From positions 1-37,222 of the forward strand of contig JAEELJ010000017.1 in assembly GCA_016288855.1 (NCBI GenBank): a stretch of DNA of 37,222 nucleotides. Reading direction: 5' to 3'. The notes under the pieces were generated by a model. It saw nothing but the letters and a program-made list of their open reading frames with translations. It was not told the DNA's origin and did no database searches. The position numbers were made by a program, and so were the translations under genes. Below are positions 569 to 20,356 of this stretch, in pieces (position 1 is the first letter of the stretch; each line of letters begins with the position of its first letter). The stretch comes from Acholeplasmatales bacterium. GTDB lineage: Bacteria; Bacillota_I; Bacilli_A; Acholeplasmatales; Anaeroplasmataceae.

Positions 569-3196
569 TTATTCTTCTACAATTTCCTGATCACGAATGA
601 TCTTGATGCAACGGCAGTTAGCACACATTAACATCTTTAATGCATCTGCATCAAAGTATTCAGCATAGATTGTAAGCTTACGATCTAATGTGCCTCTAGC
701 TTTAATTCTTAATACATTACCGCTAGTTACAATATGTAATGACTTTAATAAATCAATTGTAATTTCATCACCATTTTCGAAATGGTTACATAATGTATCA
801 AGATATACTGTAGCTTCAACCTCTTCATCATCAAGAGGTTCACCATTAATCATTGGTAAGTATTCGTCTAAATCATCTGGCATATCATCTGGGATGCTAT
901 GAACATTGATAGAATCCTGTAGATAATCAGCTCTCATACCTAATGTAGCCATGATTGCTTCACCATTTGGAATTAATTCAGGCATGTAATTTGTAGGTTG
1001 GAAGTTTCTCTTAGGCTTAACACCACGATTTGCCATCATGATATCAACTAATTCCTTGAAGTACTTTAATGCTCTAGGAGATCTAACCTTAATCATTACT
1101 GGTACTTCAGCATATTGCTTCTTAGAAGAAACATCCTTTAAATGATACTTAGGATTTTCATCGATAAATTCAACAGGTAATGCTAAGAATACCTTAATTG
1201 ACTTACCACCTAATGCAACCTTAGAAACTAATCCTTTATATCTGAATGATTCACATCTAGATGAATTTCTACCCTTTGCACGATACATTACTAAGTAATT
1301 CTTAATTTCATTATAATATTCCTTAGTTTCATATGGAGCAAACATCATTCTAGAATTAAATCTTCTCTTAATCTTCTTAACGTTACCATCTTCATCGATA
1401 ACTTGGAAATCTTGAACAATAATTCCAGCTTCTTTTGTCTTAGGATGAATTTCTTCTACTTCTTCATCAGATTCATCATCTGCATATTCATCAGCATCGT
1501 CATCATCTTCTTCATCATCTTCTGCTTCAGCTTCTTCATCATCTTCAGCTTCTTCAGCAGGAGTTTCCTCAACTGGAGCTTCTTCAACAACTTCTTCTTC
1601 AACAACCTCTTCTTCAGGCTGTTCTTCTTCTACATTTTCTTCTTCAGCAGGAACTTCTTCAGTTTCCTCTTCAGCTACTTCCTCTTCAACAACTTCTTCA
1701 GGTTGTTCTTCTTCAACATATTCTTCTTCAGCAACTTCTTCCTCAGGTTGTTCTTCTTGAGCTTCTTCGTCACCATAATATGTCTTTAATAATTCTTCTT
1801 CCTCTTCAGAAATTGCGAATGGATCTTTTTCTTCTGGCTGTTCTTCAGCTTTTTCTTCTTCAGCTTTTTCTTCTTCGGCTTTTTCTTCTTCAGCCTTTTC
1901 TTCTTCTACTTCCTTCTTGTATTCATACTGCTTAACAACTTCAGATAAAGCATCATAATTTCTTAATCTGATAATTTGGATTAATAATGAATATAAGAAT
2001 AGTACACCTAAAACAATTGTAGCAACTAATGCCATAATGTTATCAGTTAAAACAGAGAAGTTATTCTTAATTGCAAGTGATACTACAAATGGAATAACAA
2101 ATGAAGAACCATATAACATTATAATTAATAAGCAATCAATCTTTTCAATCTTTGTAGATTTGAACTTTCTAAATAATAATGATAATACAATTAATAATAA
2201 TGAAACTACTAATACAATAATAGATCCAACCATTATGCTTGGTGTGTGACCAATAATCTTATTAACTGAATTACCAGAAATTTGGCCAACAACTGGTAAA
2301 GCTAATGCAGATAATACTACGAAACCAACTGCAACAGCTAAAGCTGCATTGAATTTATCATAAACTTGTAAGAAATAATATCTTACCTTATGGCTATTGT
2401 CGCCATAATACTTACCCTTATTATAAGTAAATCCTCTTACTATTAAACCGACTGATGCTCCAGCTGCTAATAATAAGTCAACCTTTAATGTAATTGATGC
2501 TATGCCAACAGCTGCACCTAAATAGATGAAATATGTTGTAGCAACAAATCCTATTGCTAATAATAAGTCTAATAAAGTAACATCGACATTACTATCTAAT
2601 CCAGAAATAATTAAAATTACTAATAATGCAACAACACCACCAACTACATAATACTTGTATTTAGCAAATTGACTAACAACAGGTAAATTTAAGTTTTGTG
2701 ATGCAAGAACTGTTACAGCAACTGCAAGTGCAATACCAACAACTAAAATTAAAATAGGGTTGAAAGCACCAGCTAAAGCGCCATAATAATTCTTGAAAGA
2801 TGCAGGTTCAGGATCATTAGCCTTAATAAATCTAACAACAATTTCACAAAGGAATACTGCTACAGTGCAAATAAATGGTAAATAAGCTTTCCATGAAGTC
2901 TTACCAATAATTGACATTACGATCATTACAATTGATGAAAAGAACCCTACAACTCTAATGAAATCAATAAACGAAATTTTTTCGCTCTTAAGTTTACATA
3001 AACCTAATACAGCAAAACCAATTAATAGAGCAATAGATGCTCCAAAAACTAAATTACGGATTTCTGCGCTTGAAATGATAGTCTTGTTTGCAACACTAAC
3101 ATAACCTATGCAGCAGAATGCAACTACCATAATAAGTGTCGCAAAAACTCCGTATGCCTTAAAATAGGACTTTAAAAAGTTTTCTTTTTCTGACAT
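569..3196 (-). CDS. polytopic membrane protein with acidic linker and uL15-like C-terminal domain
   Basis: An 875-residue protein with no named function. Residues 10-410 hold about twelve hydrophobic segments (for example 14-36, 48-68, 145-166, 183-200, 284-306, 320-342, 386-409). Residues 424-585 are an extremely acidic, low-complexity linker starting with KAEEE repeats. Residues 613-725 form a globular domain with the pattern ETKEYYNEIKNYL, SSRCESFRYKG, GKSIKVFLAL, KYHLKDVS and ALKYFKELVD, which I recall from uncharacterised gut-Firmicutes proteins. Residues 798-866 (GDEITIDLLKSLHIV, VLRIKARGTLDRKLTIYAEYFDADALKML) resemble the C-terminal half of ribosomal protein uL15. The linker and C-terminal domains are most likely cytosolic. 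The start follows a good SD (AGGAGAT). The gene stands alone between its own promoter and terminator. A role at the membrane-ribosome interface is speculation. Confidence 0.7.
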   Translation of the reverse strand: MSEKENFLKSYFKAYGVFATLIMVVAFCCIGYVSVANKTIISSAEIRNLVFGASIALLIGFAVLGLCKLKSEKISFIDFIRVVGFFSSIVMIVMSIIGKTSWKAYLPFICTVAVFLCEIVVRFIKANDPEPASFKNYYGALAGAFNPILILVVGIALAVAVTVLASQNLNLPVVSQFAKYKYYVVGGVVALLVILIISGLDSNVDVTLLDLLLAIGFVATTYFIYLGAAVGIASITLKVDLLLAAGASVGLIVRGFTYNKGKYYGDNSHKVRYYFLQVYDKFNAALAVAVGFVVLSALALPVVGQISGNSVNKIIGHTPSIMVGSIIVLVVSLLLIVLSLLFRKFKSTKIEKIDCLLIIMLYGSSFVIPFVVSLAIKNNFSVLTDNIMALVATIVLGVLFLYSLLIQIIRLRNYDALSEVVKQYEYKKEVEEEKAEEEKAEEEKAEEEKAEEQPEEKDPFAISEEEEELLKTYYGDEEAQEEQPEEEVAEEEYVEEEQPEEVVEEEVAEEETEEVPAEEENVEEEQPEEEVVEEEVVEEAPVEETPAEEAEDDEEAEAEDDEEDDDDADEYADDESDEEVEEIHPKTKEAGIIVQDFQVIDEDGNVKKIKRRFNSRMMFAPYETKEYYNEIKNYLVMYRAKGRNSSRCESFRYKGLVSKVALGGKSIKVFLALPVEFIDENPKYHLKDVSSKKQYAEVPVMIKVRSPRALKYFKELVDIMMANRGVKPKRNFQPTNYMPELIPNGEAIMATLGMRADYLQDSINVHSIPDDMPDDLDEYLPMINGEPLDDEEVEATVYLDTLCNHFENGDEITIDLLKSLHIVTSGNVLRIKARGTLDRKLTIYAEYFDADALKMLMCANCRCIKIIRDQEIVEE
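1842..1906 (-). repeat. 15-bp tandem repeat encoding KAEEE
   Basis: About four copies of a 15-base unit (plus-strand TTCTTCAGCTTTTTC-like) encode KAEEE repeats at residues 431-452 of the membrane protein. Copies differ at one or two positions. A tract like this can expand or shrink by slippage without breaking the frame. Confidence 0.8.
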
Positions 3197-11501: not shown

Positions 11502-12692
11502 ATGAATTTTATTTTTATAAGTCCAGCATTTCCAAAATCATATTATAATTTCTGTGATAGACTTAAGAAAAATGGAATGAATGTATTAGGAATAGGTGAT
11601 ACTCCATATAACGACTTAGATAGTAATGTAATTAATTCATTAACAGAATATTATAAGGTTTCTAATATGCAAAACTATGATGAAATGTATAGAGCTGTTG
11701 CTTATTTCGCATTTAAATATGGTAAGATTGATTTCTTAGAAAGCAATAATGAGTTTTGGTTAAGACAGGACGCAAGACTAAGAACTGATTTTAACATTTA
11801 TGGTGCTAAAACAAATGATGTATTAACATTCACATCCAAAAGCCAAATGAAGGAATTCTATAAAAAGGCAAAAGTTCCTTGTGCAAGATATAAGTTTTCA
11901 ACTAATTATCAAGAAGATTTAGATTTTATTCAAAATGTTGTATCATTCCCTGTAGTTGTAAAGCCAGATGTTGGTGTAGGTGCCGCAAGAACATATAGAA
12001 TTGAGAATGAAAATGATTTAAAGGAATTTCATAATTCAGGATTTAATGTACCTTATATAATTGAAGAATATATTTATGGTGATATTATTTCTTTTGATGG
12101 AATATGTGATAATGAATCTAATGTTGTATTTTGTGATAATGAAGTATTCCCTCCATCAATAATGGATATAGTAAATAATAATTTAGAAATATCTTATTAT
12201 GTAAATAAGGAAGTACCAAAAAAAGTATTAGATATTGGAAAAAGAGTAATTAAAGCTTTTAACATTAAATCAAGATACTTCCATTTAGAATTCTTTAGAT
12301 TAATTAATGAGAAAAAAGGATTAGGTAAAGCTGGAGATATTGTAGCCTTAGAGGTAAACATGAGACCACCTGGAGGATATACACCTGATGTAATCAATTT
12401 CTCACAGTCTGTAGATACATATCAAATATATGCTGATGTCATGGCATATAACAAAGTTGTTAATGTAGATTTCTCTCATCCAAAATATTATTGTATTTAT
12501 ATAGGTAGACGAGATAGATTTAATTATAAATATGATTATGATTACATAAAATCACTATATTCTTCTATTGTTATGCATGATAGATGCCCTAATGCATTAT
12601 CAGATGCGTTAGGAAATGAATTCTTTATAGCTAAATTTGAAAGTTATGAAGAGATGGAAGGATTTAAAGAAATGGTATTTGAAAAAAATTAA
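11502..12692 (+). CDS. ATP-grasp family carboxylate ligase of unknown substrate
   Basis: A 396-residue cytosolic protein, one of only two complete plus-strand genes here. The N-terminal Rossmann-like domain (about 1-100, MNFIFISPAFPKSYYNFCDRL, VLGIGDTPYNDL) is followed by an ATP-grasp fold: FPVVVKPDVGVGAARTYRI (about 149-167, ATP-binding Lys), YIIEEYIYGDIISFDG, and the metal-binding end ALEVNMRPPGGYTPD (about 284-298). The family joins a carboxylate to an amine or thiol with ATP. I recall close relatives in many gut bacteria as unnamed ATP-grasp proteins, with no known substrate. There is no operon partner, so context does not help. Good SD; the gene ends at a bidirectional terminator shared with the AEC transporter. 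Confidence 0.85.
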   Translation: MNFIFISPAFPKSYYNFCDRLKKNGMNVLGIGDTPYNDLDSNVINSLTEYYKVSNMQNYDEMYRAVAYFAFKYGKIDFLESNNEFWLRQDARLRTDFNIYGAKTNDVLTFTSKSQMKEFYKKAKVPCARYKFSTNYQEDLDFIQNVVSFPVVVKPDVGVGAARTYRIENENDLKEFHNSGFNVPYIIEEYIYGDIISFDGICDNESNVVFCDNEVFPPSIMDIVNNNLEISYYVNKEVPKKVLDIGKRVIKAFNIKSRYFHLEFFRLINEKKGLGKAGDIVALEVNMRPPGGYTPDVINFSQSVDTYQIYADVMAYNKVVNVDFSHPKYYCIYIGRRDRFNYKYDYDYIKSLYSSIVMHDRCPNALSDALGNEFFIAKFESYEEMEGFKEMVFEKN

Positions 12693-12728: not shown

Positions 12729-13805
12729 TTATAACATGCCTATTGCGGCAAGTGTAAATATTATCAAAAATAAAGATATTGCAGAAAGGGATGTTGTCCA
12801 AACTACAATTTGACCAGCTAATTCTTCATCCTGTCCCATTTGAGCTGCCATAGGTGCACTTGATACTGCAATAGGTGTTGCAAATAAAGCAACTAATATT
12901 GCATATTCAGTAGTACCCCATCCTAAGTTTCTTCCTAAGAAATAAGCTATTGTTAAGAATATTACTGGTGTAATTACTAATCTAAATGATACTGTAACAA
13001 CAAGCTGACGCCATAGCTTTTTAACTGCACTAAATTCAAATCTAGCTCCTAATACTAATAATGCGATAGGTGTTGCACAACGTCCTATATAATTGATTGC
13101 AGTACCTATAAAATGTAGATCTGCTAAATTATATAAAGAATTATCTGAAATAGCCACTGCGTTACCATCAATTACATCATATCTTACATTATAATCAGTA
13201 AATATAGATTTTAGTGTTCCATCAATTCCAGTAAGCTTATCAATACCAAGACCTATAAAGCATACAACTAAACCACTTACTACTCCAATGATTAATGGAT
13301 TAGTAGCTATCTTCTTTAAAATATCCTTAACACTAATTTTTTGACCTTCTTCATGGTCATAAATAGATAAAGCTATTACAGCAAGAATATTAAAAATAGG
13401 TACTGATACTGCTGCCATAACAGCTGCAGATGCTTCTGCCTTAGAACCACCTAATAAAACCGCAAGTGGTACACCTATGATTGCATAATTACTTCTAAAT
13501 GTTGCTTGAAGGATAACACCTTTTTGTTTTTTATCCTTAAAAGCCATAACAACAACTAATCCTATTGTAAATAGAATCAATATTGATCCTGCGCCAAAAC
13601 CAACGAATGCCCAATTTATAGTAGACAAATCCGCAAGATAAAGATTACTGAATAATAAAACAGGAATCAGTAGCTTAAATACAAGCTTATTTAAATTAGC
13701 CCAAAATTCTTCTGGAAGTAGTTTAATCTTTTTTAAAAAGAAACCAACTATAACCGGAATAATTATTGGTAAAATTGCATTTAATGTAAAAATTAGATAA
13801 TCCAT
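12729..13805 (-). CDS. AEC family transporter (auxin efflux carrier type)
   Basis: A 358-residue integral membrane protein with about ten hydrophobic helices in two halves. Family features include the N-terminal PIIIPVIVGFFLKKIKLLPEEF and LNKLVFKLLIPVLLFSNL, and the C-terminal TPIAVSSAPMAAQMGQDEELAGQIVVWTTSLSAI. Bacterial AEC members export or import organic acids such as malate and malonate, and sometimes amino acids. The substrate cannot be called. The middle (about 195-225) carries a hydrophilic insert. It is a single gene next to lysC but separated by a terminator, so a link to aspartate or lysine metabolism is only possible. Confidence 0.88.
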   Translation of the reverse strand: MDYLIFTLNAILPIIIPVIVGFFLKKIKLLPEEFWANLNKLVFKLLIPVLLFSNLYLADLSTINWAFVGFGAGSILILFTIGLVVVMAFKDKKQKGVILQATFRSNYAIIGVPLAVLLGGSKAEASAAVMAAVSVPIFNILAVIALSIYDHEEGQKISVKDILKKIATNPLIIGVVSGLVVCFIGLGIDKLTGIDGTLKSIFTDYNVRYDVIDGNAVAISDNSLYNLADLHFIGTAINYIGRCATPIALLVLGARFEFSAVKKLWRQLVVTVSFRLVITPVIFLTIAYFLGRNLGWGTTEYAILVALFATPIAVSSAPMAAQMGQDEELAGQIVVWTTSLSAISLFLIIFTLAAIGML

Positions 13806-13918: not shown

Positions 13919-15229
13919 TTAATTATTTCTAATTAATGAATCATATAATGAAGAAACTGTTTCTTCATAATCTTTAGAAGAAATACCAATGATGATATTT
14001 AATTCACTTGGACCTTGTGCAAGTAATTTAACATTAATTGATTTCTTTCCTAATGTTTCAAAAATCTTAGCACATACACCACTTCTCTTAGCCATACCAC
14101 GACCAACAACTGCAACTAATGCTAAATCTCCTTCAACATTAACATTTGCACCTAATTCCTTCTTTAAGTCAGTAACTAATTCATATTGAACCTTTTCAAC
14201 CTGTGATGCAGCAACAACTACAGAGAATGAATCAATACCTGTTGGAGTATGTTCAATTGAAACACCATAGCGTTCAAAAATAGATAAGCCTTTTCTTAAG
14301 AAACCAACTTCATTAGACATATGGTCTTTTTGAATATTAAATGATAAGAAATCCTTCTTACCAGCAATACCAGTAACAATAGTCTTTGATGCAGGACAGT
14401 CATTTTGAATGAATGTACCAATATCTTCAGGTCTATTAGTATTCTTTAAATTAATTGGAATATTTAATTGCTGAACTGGGAATACAGTTTCTTCATGTAA
14501 AACTGATGCACCCATATAAGATAATTCTCTTAATTCAGCATATGTAATATAATCGATTGCACGAGGCTCTTTTACAAGTCTAGGGTCTGCTGCAAGAATC
14601 CCAGAAACATCTGTCCAGTTTTCATATAATGATGCGTTAATACAATTAGCTAAAATTGAACCAGTAACATCTGATCCACCTCTAGATAATAATCTTACAG
14701 AACCATTAGGGTATGCACCATAGAAGCCAGGAACTACGATTTGATTATTTTTAGATACTGCAAGCTTAACATTCTTTTGTGTTAATTCTTCATCTAATGT
14801 TCCATCATAGTTATATTTTAATAAATCCTTTGCATCTACCCATGAATATCCTAAATATGCAGCCATAAGCTTAGATGTTAAATATTCACCTCTAGAAACT
14901 AAATAATCTTGAGGAATATTTTTATTTAATTCCTTTTGTAATTCATCTAAATCATTTTTGATTTCATAGTCAATTCCTAATTCTTCTTTAACTCCTAGGA
15001 ATCTTGTATAAATCATATCCCAAATATCCTTATAAGGTACAGAATATTTTAAATGTGCATGTAATATATATAATAAGTCAGTTATTTTTGTATCTTCCTT
15101 ATCTCTTTTTCCTAATGCTGAACATACAACAATTTTTCTTTTTGGGTCAGATAAAACTATGTTTTTTACTTTTGCAAATTGTGTAGCACTAGAAAGTGAA
15201 CTACCACCAAATTTTGTAACAACTAACAT
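13919..15229 (-). CDS. lysC: aspartate kinase
   Basis: A 436-residue cytosolic enzyme that phosphorylates L-aspartate, the first step to lysine and diaminopimelate. The N-terminal kinase motif is VTKFGGSSLSSATQF (4-18). SRGGSDVTGSILAN (about 194-207) and the substrate-binding WTDVSGILAADPRLV follow. Two ACT domains (about 295-430) would give allosteric feedback, probably by lysine. It is a monofunctional kinase: the length excludes a homoserine dehydrogenase fusion. It starts 10 bases after asd and is the last gene of the lysine block. Confidence 0.95.
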   Translation of the reverse strand: MLVVTKFGGSSLSSATQFAKVKNIVLSDPKRKIVVCSALGKRDKEDTKITDLLYILHAHLKYSVPYKDIWDMIYTRFLGVKEELGIDYEIKNDLDELQKELNKNIPQDYLVSRGEYLTSKLMAAYLGYSWVDAKDLLKYNYDGTLDEELTQKNVKLAVSKNNQIVVPGFYGAYPNGSVRLLSRGGSDVTGSILANCINASLYENWTDVSGILAADPRLVKEPRAIDYITYAELRELSYMGASVLHEETVFPVQQLNIPINLKNTNRPEDIGTFIQNDCPASKTIVTGIAGKKDFLSFNIQKDHMSNEVGFLRKGLSIFERYGVSIEHTPTGIDSFSVVVAASQVEKVQYELVTDLKKELGANVNVEGDLALVAVVGRGMAKRSGVCAKIFETLGKKSINVKLLAQGPSELNIIIGISSKDYEETVSSLYDSLIRNN

Positions 15230-15239
15230 ATAAATCCTC

Positions 15240-16283
15240 CTAGAAATCTAATCCAACAAGCTTTAAAGCAATTTGTACTGCGTTAGTTGCAGCACCCTTT
15301 CTAACTTGGTCTCCACAACAGAATAATGAAATACCATTATCAAATACTAAATCCTTACGGATTCTACCAACATAAACAATATCCTGATCAGAAGTTAAAA
15401 TTGGCATAGGATATTCTTTATTAGCTAAATCATCATATAATTTGCAACCTTGTTCCTTTGCAATTTGTGCTCTAACCTCTTCAACTGTTAAAGGCTTTTC
15501 TGTATAAACAGTAACTGAAATAGAATGGCTTCTTACTACTGGAATTCTAACGCAAGTACAATTTACCTTTAATTCAGGTAAATGCATAATCTTTCTTCCT
15601 TCATTTTGCATCTTCATTTCTTCTTTTGTATAGCCATTATCTAATGCAGATGAAATATGAGGAATTACATTACCAGCGATTTGATATTGGAATACGCTAG
15701 GATTAGCCTTATCATCAATTACCTTAACCTCACCATTATTCTTATAATCTTGGTAAAGGTCACCCATTTGATTATATAATTCAATAGGTCCATTAATACC
15801 AGCACCACTTGTTGCTTGATATGTTGATACAGTCATGCCCTTGATATTAGATAATTTATTAATGCCCTTTACTGCCATTAATGTAACAATTGTTGAACAG
15901 TTAGGGTTTGCAATAACACCCTTGTTCTTAAATACATCATCACCATTAATTTCAGGTACTACTAGAGGAACATCCTCATCTAGTCTAAATGCACTTGAGT
16001 TATCAATAAATACTGCACCTGCTTTAACAATATCATCCTTAAATTCAATTGCAACAGGATTTGATGCAGCACCTAAAACAATATCTAAGCCTTCAAAAGC
16101 TTCATGACATGCAAGCTTAACTTCAATTTCCTTTCCGTCATATTCAATCTTCTTACCAACACTTCTTTCAGAAGCTAATAAACGTAATTCGTTAATTGGA
16201 AAATTTCTTTCTTTTAATACTTTTAACATTTCACGACCAACTGCACCAGTTGCGCCTAAAATACCTACATTATACTTTTTCAT
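15240..16283 (-). CDS. asd: aspartate-semialdehyde dehydrogenase
   Basis: A cytosolic enzyme reducing aspartyl phosphate to aspartate semialdehyde, the second step of the pathway. The NADP-binding motif GILGATGAVGREML is near the N terminus. The catalytic Cys is in ANPNCSTIV, and the substrate-binding region includes QATSGAGINGP and RIPVVRSHS. I place the start at MKKYNVGILGATG (347 residues), because SD AGGAG lies 12 bases upstream. The frame is open 17 codons further (to 16334), but that extension crosses the SD and matches no family N terminus. It sits 10 bases upstream of lysC. A long hairpin (16337-16392) separates it from dapB. Confidence 0.95.
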   Translation of the reverse strand: MKKYNVGILGATGAVGREMLKVLKERNFPINELRLLASERSVGKKIEYDGKEIEVKLACHEAFEGLDIVLGAASNPVAIEFKDDIVKAGAVFIDNSSAFRLDEDVPLVVPEINGDDVFKNKGVIANPNCSTIVTLMAVKGINKLSNIKGMTVSTYQATSGAGINGPIELYNQMGDLYQDYKNNGEVKVIDDKANPSVFQYQIAGNVIPHISSALDNGYTKEEMKMQNEGRKIMHLPELKVNCTCVRIPVVRSHSISVTVYTEKPLTVEEVRAQIAKEQGCKLYDDLANKEYPMPILTSDQDIVYVGRIRKDLVFDNGISLFCCGDQVRKGAATNAVQIALKLVGLDF

Positions 16284-16324
16284 TATATAATCACTCCTAT
16301 TATTTAAATAATAAACAATGTCAT

Positions 16325-16392
16325 TATAAAACAAAAACAGTAGTATTTCAATAAATAAAAACGCTTTTTGTTCAAAATATTTATACTACTGT
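16325..16392 (-). terminator. long hairpin between dapB and asd, terminator or attenuator
   Basis: ACAGTAGTAT (16337-16346) is repeated inverted as ATACTACTGT (16383-16392), a perfect 10-bp stem. The 36-base AT-rich interior can pair partly. On the minus strand the stem is followed by TTTTTGTTTT. It would stop or reduce read-through from the riboswitch-controlled lysA-dapB genes into asd-lysC. No clear promoter for asd was found downstream of it, so some read-through is probable. Confidence 0.6.
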
Positions 16393-16438
16393 CTTTTGTA
16401 GACGTACATTTACATCTATATGTATAAAATTATATTAA

Positions 16439-17155
16439 TTACTTATTAGAGCCAAATAATACGTCTTCCATGTCGTAATATCCATTTGGCTTACCAACTA
16501 ACCATCTAGCTGCTTTAATAGCACCAAGTGCGAATATTTTCTTTGAGCTAGCTGAATGCTTTAATGTAATAATTTCATCATCACCACAATACATAACCTC
16601 ATGCTCACCAACAATTGTTCCGCCTCTTACAGCAGAAACACCAACTTCTTCATGAGTTCTTGGGCAATAACCACTTCTTCCTTCAACAACCTTAAATCCA
16701 GTGTTTTCAACAATTGAATTAACAAGCATTTTAGCTGTTCCAGATGGAGCATCTAATTTCTTATTGTGATGTGCTTCTACAACTTCAATATCAAAGTCAT
16801 CCTTTAATATTGGAGTAATTTCCTTTACTAATCTATTTAATAAGATTACCCCCAAAGAGAAATTAGCACTTCTTAATACAGGAGCTACCTTAGATAATTC
16901 ATCAATTTTTTCTAGCTGTTCTTTTGTATAACCAGTTGTTGCAAAAATAACAGGCTTTTTAGTCTTTTTTACATAATCACAAATCATATCTAAATTTGCA
17001 ACATTTGAAAAATCAATAATTACATCAAAATTTCCATCAGTATCCTTTAAATCCTTAAATTCACATTCAGGTGCTACATTTGTAGAAAGCTCATCTCCTA
17101 ATAAATTAGAAATGATCTTACCCATTGCACCATAACCAACTACTGCTGCCTTCAT
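16439..17155 (-). CDS. dapB: 4-hydroxy-tetrahydrodipicolinate reductase
   Basis: A 238-residue NAD(P)H-dependent reductase making tetrahydrodipicolinate. The N-terminal nucleotide-binding motif is VVGYGAMGKI (5-14). ATTGYTKEQL follows, and the catalytic signature is EAHHNKKLDAPSGTA (about 127-141) with the His and Lys of the active site. It is slightly shorter than the E. coli enzyme (about 270) but close to other short Firmicutes forms. The start overlaps the dapA stop by one base (TAATG), so translation is coupled. Last gene before the 16337-16392 hairpin. Confidence 0.95.
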   Translation of the reverse strand: MKAAVVGYGAMGKIISNLLGDELSTNVAPECEFKDLKDTDGNFDVIIDFSNVANLDMICDYVKKTKKPVIFATTGYTKEQLEKIDELSKVAPVLRSANFSLGVILLNRLVKEITPILKDDFDIEVVEAHHNKKLDAPSGTAKMLVNSIVENTGFKVVEGRSGYCPRTHEEVGVSAVRGGTIVGEHEVMYCGDDEIITLKHSASSKKIFALGAIKAARWLVGKPNGYYDMEDVLFGSNK

Positions 17156-18036
17156 TAGAATATAATCTCCTTATCTTTATCAATAATATTATGTAGCTTC
17201 TTCTTATTGTCTTCTGCCATTTCATCAAGTGGTGCTCTATATCCACCAACATTAAATCCCATATAATTCATTGCTTCCTTAACTGGGATTGGATTAACTT
17301 CCATAAATAAACCATTAGTAAAATCTAATAAATCATTTGCTAAAGAAGTAGCTTCCTGGTACTTATTTTTAAAGCATAAGTCACAAATCTTTGCAGTTTG
17401 CTTTGGAGCACAGTTTGCAAGTACAGAAATAACACCCTTTGCACCAATAGACATCATTGGAACGATAATATCATCATTTCCTGAAAGCATAATGAAATCA
17501 TCATTTAAGAATTTTGCAATCTTCATAGTATAGCTCATATTACCACTTGCTTCCTTAATACCATAGATATTAGGATGCTTTGATAATACCTCAACAGCAT
17601 GAACAGACATAGACATACCTGTTCTACCTGGTACATTATACATAATTACTGGGCAATGAGATGCATCAGCAACTGCTGTAAAATGCTTAATTAAACCTGA
17701 TTCATTAGTCTTATTATAATATGGAGTAATTACTAAAACATAATCTGCTCCTAATTTAGAATACTTTTCAGACATAGTAACTGCTTTTTCTGTTTCATTA
17801 GAACCAGAACCAACAATTAATGGTACTCTATGATTTACCTTTGCTACAGAATATTTAACTATTTCAGCTTCTTCATCAAATGATAATGTAGAAGCCTCAC
17901 CTGTAGTACCTAAAATTACAATTCCTCCACTATGATTTGCAATATGGAATTCAAGTAATTCACCTAACTTTTCGAAATTTACACTTCCATCCTCATTAAA
18001 AGGTGTAACAAGTGCAACAATAGAACCTGATAACAT
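17155..18036 (-). CDS. dapA: 4-hydroxy-tetrahydrodipicolinate synthase
   Basis: A 293-residue TIM-barrel aldolase condensing pyruvate with aspartate semialdehyde. Substrate motifs GTTGEASTL (43-51) and YNVPGRTGM (about 133-141, active-site Tyr) are present. The Schiff-base Lys is in YGIKEASGN (about residue 161). Length is standard. It lies 2 bases after dapF and overlaps dapB by one base, in the tight lysA-dapF-dapA-dapB unit behind the lysine riboswitch. Confidence 0.96.
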   Translation of the reverse strand: MLSGSIVALVTPFNEDGSVNFEKLGELLEFHIANHSGGIVILGTTGEASTLSFDEEAEIVKYSVAKVNHRVPLIVGSGSNETEKAVTMSEKYSKLGADYVLVITPYYNKTNESGLIKHFTAVADASHCPVIMYNVPGRTGMSMSVHAVEVLSKHPNIYGIKEASGNMSYTMKIAKFLNDDFIMLSGNDDIIVPMMSIGAKGVISVLANCAPKQTAKICDLCFKNKYQEATSLANDLLDFTNGLFMEVNPIPVKEAMNYMGFNVGGYRAPLDEMAEDNKKKLHNIIDKDKEIIF

Positions 18037-18038
18037 GA

Positions 18039-18854
18039 TTATTCCTCCTTAACATATTTATAATCAATTTCAAAAATGTCATTAGCATCACCAGAAACAT
18101 AAACATTATCCTTTTTATCAGCTATTATAATAATATTTCCGTAATCTAATATACATTCACATTTGTTCTTTATAAATCCTAATTTCTTTGCAGCAACCAT
18201 TACTGCAGCACATCCATGTAAGGAAGCATGGACAAATCCATCTTCCTTATCATATGTTTTTACCATATACTTACCCTTTTCCTTTAGATAAGCAAATGAT
18301 ACATTTATTTTTTTATTAAATATTTTATATGATGATATTTCTTTAGCAATATCATGTAATTTTGAATTTATGACATCAGTAAATATTACTAAATGAGGTT
18401 CACCGATAAATAATGAATAAGAAGTTATATAAGTATTATTAATTATAAGCTCTCTTCCGAATGAATTTATAGAATCAGTAATATATAACATCTTATTGTT
18501 AAATAAAGGCTTACCTAGATTAATACTACAAGTAAATGGAACCTCACCTGTTATTTCTAATTCAACAATTCCTTTACCAGTTAAAACTTCAAATTTATGA
18601 GATTTAACAATTTTATTTTCAAACACATACTTACTAAAGCATATTAAAGCATTTGAATCAAATGTGATGAGCTTTCCATTTGAATCATACACTTTCATTT
18701 CTAAAGGCTTTTCTTTTACTAAAATTAACGCCTTTGCACCAACACCAAATATTCTATCTAAAATCTTTTTTGAAGCATTTGAATAATTAATTCCATCCTC
18801 TATTTTAGTTAATAAATAATCAGTGCCTAGTGAATGCATTTTAACTAAATGCAT
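18039..18854 (-). CDS. DapF-like protein lacking both catalytic cysteines
   Basis: A 271-residue protein with the diaminopimelate epimerase fold and length: KMHSLGTDYLL at 5-15 (family KMHGLGNDF), EMKVYDSNGK at 52-61, GEPHLVIF at 151-158, NVSF at 184-187. DapF normally uses two cysteines, one in a CGNG..CF motif and one in ACGTGA. Here the first motif reads FDSNALICF (65-73), with Asp66 at the cysteine position. The second reads HASLHGCAA (209-217), with Ser211 at the cysteine position. The ERG.GET substrate-binding segment is also lost (DKEDGFV, 202-208), as are the Asn residues of GLGND and GNPH. I therefore doubt normal epimerase activity. The gene is intact, starts on the lysA stop (TAATG) and lies 2 bases before dapA, so it is expressed with the pathway. 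It may be a regulatory pseudoenzyme, a scaffold, or an isomerase using Asp66 as its acid/base. Confidence 0.85.
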   Translation of the reverse strand: MHLVKMHSLGTDYLLTKIEDGINYSNASKKILDRIFGVGAKALILVKEKPLEMKVYDSNGKLITFDSNALICFSKYVFENKIVKSHKFEVLTGKGIVELEITGEVPFTCSINLGKPLFNNKMLYITDSINSFGRELIINNTYITSYSLFIGEPHLVIFTDVINSKLHDIAKEISSYKIFNKKINVSFAYLKEKGKYMVKTYDKEDGFVHASLHGCAAVMVAAKKLGFIKNKCECILDYGNIIIIADKKDNVYVSGDANDIFEIDYKYVKEE

Positions 18855-20089
18855 TATACTTCTCTTTCAATAAGCTCATCTAACGTCATTCTCTTTATTG
18901 CAATTCTAGACTTTCCATCTTCAACAAATACTACTGCTGGAGTTAAAGCCTTATTGTAATTTGAACTCATTGAATAACCGTAAGCACCAGTTGTATAAGT
19001 AATTAATAAATCTCCTGATTTTGCTTCAGGTAGATTAATATCTTCAATAATTAAATCTCCTGATTCACAGCACTTACCTGCAATAGTTACCTTGTGATTA
19101 TGTGCTTCATTTTCTTTACCAATTATTTCAGCATCATACTTAGCTTGATAAAGGGCAGGACGAATGTTATCTGTCATACCACCATCAATGAAATAATATT
19201 CCTTATTTGGAGTTTTCTTAGTAAATCCAATTGTATATAAAGTATAACCAGCTTCACCAACAATTGATCTACCTGGTTCAATTGCAAGCTTCTTAATCTT
19301 TATACCAGTTCTTCTAACTGCATCCTCTGCAGTCTTAATTAAAGTCTTAGAAACTATATCAAATGGAATAGGTGAATCTTCATTTGTATAATGTACACCA
19401 TAACCTCCACCAATATTCATTACTAGAGGATAGTTGAAATCCTTTGCCATTTCAAATAATTTATCAATTGATGCATTAAATGCACTTAAATCAAATATTT
19501 GTGAACCTATATGAGAATGGAATCCTAAAAATTTAATATTTTTAGAATTATCAATTATCTTCTTCATTTCTTTATAATCATCAGAACCATATAATACACC
19601 AAACTTTGAATCTACATGTGCAGTAACAATAAACTTATGTGTATGTGCAGAAACACCAACATTCATTCTAATAACAATATTAACTACCTTGTTTTTAGAT
19701 TTAGAAACTTCTTCTAAAACCTTTAATTCGTCTAAGTTATCTACAACAACTGTACCAATGTTATTATCTAATGCGTAATTAATTTCTTCTAATGATTTAT
19801 TATTTCCATGGAAGAAAATATGCTTTGGATCAAATCCAGCTTTAATAGCTGTATACATTTCACCAAGTGAAACAACATCTAAAGATAATCCCATTTCCTT
19901 TACTACTCTAATCATTTCCTTACAGTTAAATGCTTTAGAGGCATATTCAATTTCTGTTTCAAACATTTCTGATTTAAAATTATTCTTATATAGACTCATT
20001 ATATTCTTAATATGATTTACATCATAAATATATAATGGAGTACCATATTCATTTTTTAAATCTTTTACATCAACACCTGCGATTTCCAT
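18854..20089 (-). CDS. lysA: diaminopimelate decarboxylase
   Basis: A 411-residue PLP enzyme that decarboxylates meso-diaminopimelate to L-lysine. The PLP Lys is K52 in EYASKAF. HSHIGSQI is at 191-198, the PLP phosphate loop GGGYG at 227-231, EPGRSIV at 271-277, and the substrate motif GKCCESGD at 338-345 supplies the catalytic Cys across the dimer. YGYSMSSNYN near the C terminus binds PLP and substrate. All key residues are present, unlike the neighbouring DapF homologue. It is the first gene after the lysine riboswitch and overlaps dapF by one base. Confidence 0.96.
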   Translation of the reverse strand: MEIAGVDVKDLKNEYGTPLYIYDVNHIKNIMSLYKNNFKSEMFETEIEYASKAFNCKEMIRVVKEMGLSLDVVSLGEMYTAIKAGFDPKHIFFHGNNKSLEEINYALDNNIGTVVVDNLDELKVLEEVSKSKNKVVNIVIRMNVGVSAHTHKFIVTAHVDSKFGVLYGSDDYKEMKKIIDNSKNIKFLGFHSHIGSQIFDLSAFNASIDKLFEMAKDFNYPLVMNIGGGYGVHYTNEDSPIPFDIVSKTLIKTAEDAVRRTGIKIKKLAIEPGRSIVGEAGYTLYTIGFTKKTPNKEYYFIDGGMTDNIRPALYQAKYDAEIIGKENEAHNHKVTIAGKCCESGDLIIEDINLPEAKSGDLLITYTTGAYGYSMSSNYNKALTPAVVFVEDGKSRIAIKRMTLDELIEREV

Positions 20090-20140: not shown

Positions 20141-20345
20141 GTATCATTAAAAAATAATCCCTTTTATAAATTGGATTTTTAAAATAATTAGCGCCTCTTC
20201 TTTATGAAGGAGTGATATAAGTATTTCTTATATCCCCATAGTCAATGAATACCTCCATTGCTATTCGGCAGTGATTACCTTTCACATACTTCACATGATG
20301 TCTCATCCATATGCTACTCATTTGCACTGCAACCTCTAACTTATT
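20118..20345 (-). promoter_or_regulatory. lysine riboswitch (L box) with terminator
   Basis: On the minus strand the leader carries the L-box conserved blocks in order: AGAGG (about 20338-20334), AATGAGTA (20322-20315), GTGAAAGG (20285-20278), CTGCCGAA (20272-20265), GACTATGGGG (20243-20234) and TATCACTCC (about 20216-20208). Helices can be drawn: GCAGTG with CACTGC (P2), ATAGCAATG with CATTGACTAT (P4), and ATATAAG with CTTATAT (P5). The expression platform is a GC-rich terminator, GACGCC-ATT-GGCGTC (20126-20140), followed by a T run. Lysine binding should favour the terminator and switch off lysA-dapF-dapA-dapB. The aptamer spans about 20205-20345. Confidence 0.92.
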
Positions 20346-20356
20346 TAGATATTCTT

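Follow-up and report, generated by a model that had tools for sequence, protein, structure and literature searches.

DAP epimerase (DapF; TIGR00652, PF01678) is recognised by two catalytic cysteines, and its catalysis uses this thiol pair. An Escherichia coli DapF variant with both cysteines replaced (C73A/C217A) has no epimerase activity, yet binds and activates RppH (PMC4227774). A cysteine-less DapF can thus have a catalysis-independent protein-binding role, although in E. coli one protein does both jobs. In trypanosomatids, AdoMetDC and deoxyhypusine synthase each have a catalytically dead paralogue, called a prozyme, that stands beside the active homologue in a biosynthetic pathway (PMC5201418, PMC3663545). 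PhzF, CntK and HisR have the DapF fold with a changed activity, and the racemases among them keep the cysteines. No report of a naturally cysteine-less DapF was found in the open-access literature text.

Here we describe such a protein, referred to as pseudo-DapF, encoded in the lysine operon of an Acholeplasmatales bacterium. The window, i.e. the whole stretch of DNA analysed, comprises 37,222 nucleotides. Pseudo-DapF resembles DapF in predicted fold (TM 0.89–0.92), length, operon position and an above-cut-off family score, but neither catalytic cysteine is retained and most substrate contacts are replaced, and this loss accompanies the loss of DapH. It differs from the prozymes in that the candidate active partner, a second DapF (DapF2), is missing in about half of the genomes with a dead copy, and from PhzF, CntK and HisR in its greater structural distance (TM about 0.66–0.73) and in having no conserved replacement residues. 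Together with its relatives, it makes up a natural series in which a single operon gene is found active, cysteine-less or deleted, with DapH loss as the visible correlate. This series allows the birth of a pseudoenzyme to be followed stage by stage. TIGR00652, the standard DapF annotation model, calls the cysteine-less protein a DAP epimerase, which would mislead metabolic reconstructions.

A cysteine-less DapF homologue in the lysine operon

The operon is located on the minus strand of the window in the order lysine riboswitch, lysA, dapF-like gene, dapA, dapB, asd, lysC, with the following features:

20181–20346, minus strand: lysine riboswitch aptamer upstream of lysA (Rfam RF00168, 72.2 bits)
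18854–20089, minus strand: lysA, meso-DAP decarboxylase (TIGR01048, 440.6 bits, above cut-off)
18039–18854, minus strand: cysteine-less DapF homologue (pseudo-DapF), 271 aa (TIGR00652, 125.2 bits; predicted DapF fold)
18657–18659, minus strand: codon of D66, at the catalytic Cys73 position (Haemophilus influenzae numbering), computed from the ORF start
18453–18503, minus strand: clade-specific motif FNNxM...D...FGR, residues 118–134, kept after cysteine loss
18222–18224, minus strand: codon of S211, at the catalytic Cys217 position, computed from the ORF start
17155–18036, minus strand: dapA (TIGR00674, 322.3 bits)
16439–17155, minus strand: dapB (TIGR00036, 179.1 bits)
16335–16438, minus strand: dapB–asd gap of about 0.1 kb, site of dapH in cysteine-retaining relatives
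15240–16334, minus strand: asd, ORF called from TTG (NF011456, 430.5 bits, match from residue 18)
13919–15229, minus strand: lysC, aspartate kinase (NF006540, 499.5 bits)

For asd, an in-frame ATG 51 bases downstream of the called TTG is the more likely start. The pseudo-DapF gene is an intact ORF running from 18854 down to 18039, with an ATG start and no internal stops; it overlaps lysA at its 5' end and stops 2 bases short of dapA. The first-pass annotation had placed an intact gene between lysA and dapA under a lysine riboswitch, and the ORF and the RF00168 match confirm this arrangement, on the minus strand.

The TIGR00652 score exceeds the curated equivalog cut-off of 114.65 bits. Alignment with solved DapF structures places D66 opposite Cys73 and S211 opposite Cys217 of H. 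influenzae DapF, in agreement with the replacement of both catalytic cysteines read from the sequence at first pass. Changes in several substrate-binding residues, also proposed there, proved extensive: among the 13 substrate or catalytic positions that are invariant in 15 cysteine-retaining family members (cysteines included), only N68 and N184 are kept. Neither of the other two cysteines considered, C72 and C215, occupies a catalytic position. C72 aligns with the separate conserved cysteine of an 'RCF' motif, which active homologues have in addition to their catalytic cysteine, and C215 aligns with an Ala/Cys position four residues past the catalytic site. A sequencing or assembly error is ruled out as the source of the D/S pair, since an independent assembly, RUG12899 (G004), has the same replacement. 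The replaced residues suggest that epimerase activity is absent from this protein.

The AlphaFold2 model shows a two-domain DapF fold with a pLDDT of 94.7, the input alignment having included active DapFs. When this model was used in a fold search, true DapF structures ranked first (TM 0.89–0.92), and PhzF gave a TM of about 0.68. The PhzF family is characterised by a conserved acidic catalytic residue and by PhzF-like sequence and fold; D66 varies among the relatives of the window protein, and PhzF was not among the reported family matches. The analogy drawn at first pass with PhzF, on the basis of the acidic residue, is thus not supported: the model is nearer to DapF, and D66 is not conserved.

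Other DAP enzymes in the genome

The first-pass annotation had raised the matter of a second dapF, ddh or dapL elsewhere in the genome, and all three are present in the window genome (1.77 Mb, listed as 100% complete). The second dapF (dapF2; 281 bits) is canonical, with both cysteine motifs, and has dapL (490 bits) directly downstream; the same contig also carries ddh (424 bits), at a separate location. Between the window genome (G000) and G004, identity is 71% for dapF2 and 81% for pyrG, vs 91–94% for lysA and dapA, which suggests recombination or horizontal replacement of the dapF2–dapL–pyrG region.

No murE above cut-off was found in the window genome (20.7 bits vs 257.3). Mollicutes have no cell wall, and the Anaeroplasmataceae have been placed among them. 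Because murE was not found and the family belongs to this wall-less group, DAP is probably needed in the host for lysine only. The host, a gut or rumen bacterium, seems to have no cell wall. Related records carry the names Anaeroplasmataceae, Acholeplasmatales and Candidatus Avacholeplasma and also, as deposited, Erysipelotrichaceae.

Loss of the cysteines coincides with loss of DapH

We surveyed 32 DapF genes of the family that are of operon type or linked to DapH, scoring DapH as present when TIGR03532 was above cut-off. Both cysteines were kept in 16 of 16 DapH-positive genomes, and at least one was missing in 16 of 16 DapH-negative genomes, with no exceptions (Fisher value 3e-9, calculated with relatedness ignored). 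The operon order is conserved across the genus and the family. Intact relatives have dapH between dapB and asd; the window lacks it there and has the gap of about 0.1 kb. The operon copy is present in 19 genomes of the window's genus; both cysteines are found in four of them, and the other 15 carry the replacing pairs S/S, N/S, D/S, N/N, N/T and D/N. The proposal that D66/S211 form a conserved replacement pair is not borne out by this variety. In G031, from another genus, one cysteine is lost (S/C), and DapH is absent.

In seven genomes (G011, G013, G014, G017, G023, G027 and G033) dapF is absent altogether and lysA adjoins dapA. The riboswitch is found upstream of the operon in relatives with an intact, dead or absent dapF, including 3/3 dapF-absent genomes checked.

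On a lysA/dapA/dapB tree, the cysteine-less members of the genus form one main group plus G016/G020 plus G012, parts of the topology being weakly supported; G031 stands apart in another genus. On this topology, cysteines and DapH were lost together at least twice independently, perhaps four times. On the DapF tree the cysteine-less genus members cluster together, which may be a true grouping or a long-branch effect.

Another route to meso-DAP is generally available in the 15 cysteine-less genus genomes: ddh is found in 12, dapL above cut-off in 10 and DapF2 in seven, and G022 (84% complete) is the one genome without full evidence of such a route. Plant-type dapL above cut-off occurs without any DapF carrying both cysteines in G009, G013, G017, G018, G019 and G023. 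In G018 and G019, which have dapL and no cysteine-containing dapF, the Ser/Ser form may have weak activity.

Selection on the cysteine-less copies

Cysteine-less copies evolve about two to three times faster than lysA and dapA. Identity between G000 and G004 is 77% for DapF vs 94% for DapA and 91% for LysA, whereas in intact pairs of a neighbouring genus DapF is as conserved as DapA and LysA; root-to-tip lengths are increased in DapF only. NG86 dN/dS of dapF in cysteine-less pairs ranges from 0.17 to 0.28 overall (0.166 for G000/G004, 0.17–0.19 within the G003/G024/G025 group, 0.18 and 0.28 for two more pairs), compared with 0.06–0.19 for the neighbouring genes in the same pairs. Intact dapF gives 0.05–0.10 in genus g6, and a single pair of intact copies from the window's genus gives 0.17. 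Maximum-likelihood omega was unstable between genes, synonymous changes being near saturation in places, and the fit was used solely to reject omega=1, which was rejected in all five cysteine-less pairs tested (p<1e-34). The possibility that the gene is a decaying pseudogene is therefore rejected, and the product has been selected as a protein after cysteine loss. The window protein thus combines two marks of a pseudoenzyme, a homologue that has lost its catalytic residues and has been maintained by selection after that loss. Part of this purifying selection may act against misfolding.

The cysteine-less copies retain the 13 catalytic and substrate positions in 37% of cases and other invariant columns in 70%, and the counts of strongly kept columns in the two classes differ at p=0.05. 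A comparison within subclades did not bear out faster evolution of the pocket once the cysteines were gone: there the pocket is no less conserved than the remainder of the protein. This pattern would accommodate a new activity limited to G000 and G004. Family-typical residues kept after the loss are N120, M122, D127, F132-G133-R134, K47, P50, E52, F107, Y146 and S147. The motif FNNxM...D...FGR and its associated residues are absent from generic DapF and from DapF of other phyla.

Origin and possible role of pseudo-DapF

With a probability of roughly 0.6, we consider pseudo-DapF to be a former epimerase of the acetylase route that is catalytically dead, selected as a folded protein and probably endowed with a non-catalytic role, which some lineages can forgo. 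We infer the following order of events. The gene would descend from the original DAP epimerase of the operon, serving the route of DapH (tetrahydrodipicolinate N-acetyltransferase). Loss of dapH would have removed the LL-DAP source of the operon's own pathway, and meso-DAP would then have come from Ddh directly or from DapL and a second DapF. With LL-DAP epimerisation no longer needed, both cysteines and most substrate contacts could be lost, the cysteines probably changing to Ser first and then to Asn or Asp. The resulting pseudoenzyme would have stayed under purifying selection as part of the riboswitch-headed operon that also encodes LysA and DapA. The likely cause of the cysteine loss, which the first-pass annotation had not considered, is that this operon lost its DapH and another route took over.

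Within the lysine pathway, pseudo-DapF would most likely serve non-catalytically, as a regulator or binding partner, and lineages that lost the gene manage without it. By analogy with the E. coli precedent, a binding or regulatory role appears to be the most economical explanation. No E. coli-type RppH above cut-off was found in the window genome (best 32.7 vs 116 bits), and a role as RppH activator is rejected on this basis; other Nudix proteins are possible partners. Of the original suggestion of a pseudoenzyme regulator or a new activity, the pseudoenzyme label is fair, given the lost cysteines and contacts and the persisting selection, and the replacement pair and the PhzF comparison fall away. 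Several points weigh against our reading, among them that the gene is missing in seven relatives, which makes any role dispensable, and that the co-loss rests on only two to four independent events. Possible, though on present evidence doubtful, is the broader proposal that replacement of an upstream step triggered the conversion of an enzyme, at least twice independently in one probably wall-less family, into a lysine-operon protein with a selected regulatory or scaffolding function.

Since the gene is dispensable in several lineages, slow erosion without function is the main rival, although we consider it unlikely. A redundant gene would be heading for deletion, its frame persisting because of the harm that misfolding or truncation of the protein, or impaired translational coupling of lysA and dapA, would cause. 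The graded series from intact through cysteine-less to deleted, the extreme divergence of the G012 copy (49.7 bits) and the two- to three-fold rise in rate agree with this; an evolutionary rate above that of the neighbouring genes is compatible with erosion and with a new role alike. However, omega is about 0.2 and differs from 1 in each pair tested, and none of the 15 cysteine-less genus copies contains a stop. The gene is also not needed as a coupling bridge, because relatives without it keep lysA and dapA adjacent.

Readings that retain or redirect catalysis, or that require an active partner, are far less probable. A reshaped pocket (D66, S211, possibly H209) might catalyse a different reaction, as PhzF and the histidine racemases do on the same fold. 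D66, S211 and H209 are common to G000 and G004, their pocket segments are as conserved as the rest, and homologues on the DapF fold have changed substrate (PMC11602996), but both catalytic positions vary among relatives, H213 is Q in G004, the histidine racemases keep their cysteines and the model is closest to DapF. New chemistry is therefore improbable. Hardly better placed, and if anything a little less probable, is a prozyme-type activator that would heterodimerise with the active DapF2 from elsewhere in the genome. DapF forms dimers (PMC4227774), trypanosomatid prozymes offer a precedent, and DapF2 occurs in 7/15 cysteine-less congeners and in 0/4 with an intact operon DapF; however, eight congeners with a cysteine-less copy lack it, G018 (98% complete) and G016 (94%) among them, and G014 (99%) has DapF2 without a dead copy, a distribution on which DapF2 is rejected as an obligate partner. 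That Asp and Ser stand in for the two cysteines in a working DAP epimerase is very improbable, despite the equivalog-level score and the predicted DapF fold: Cys-to-Ser substitution severely impairs enzymes of the DapF fold (PMC12039745, PMC11602996), DapF with both cysteines changed to Ala is inactive (PMC4227774), most DAP-binding residues are changed as well and the step is covered by other enzymes.

Other genes in the window

An 875-aa ORF at 569–3196 (minus strand) had no Pfam match at E 1e-5. Downstream of lysC, at 12729–13805 (minus strand), a membrane transport protein (PF03547) is encoded, which may be an exporter transcribed together with the lysine operon. An ATP-grasp protein with weak family matches, encoded at 11502–12692 (plus strand), adjoins the operon, and an ATP-grasp gene also adjoins lysC in G008 and G010.
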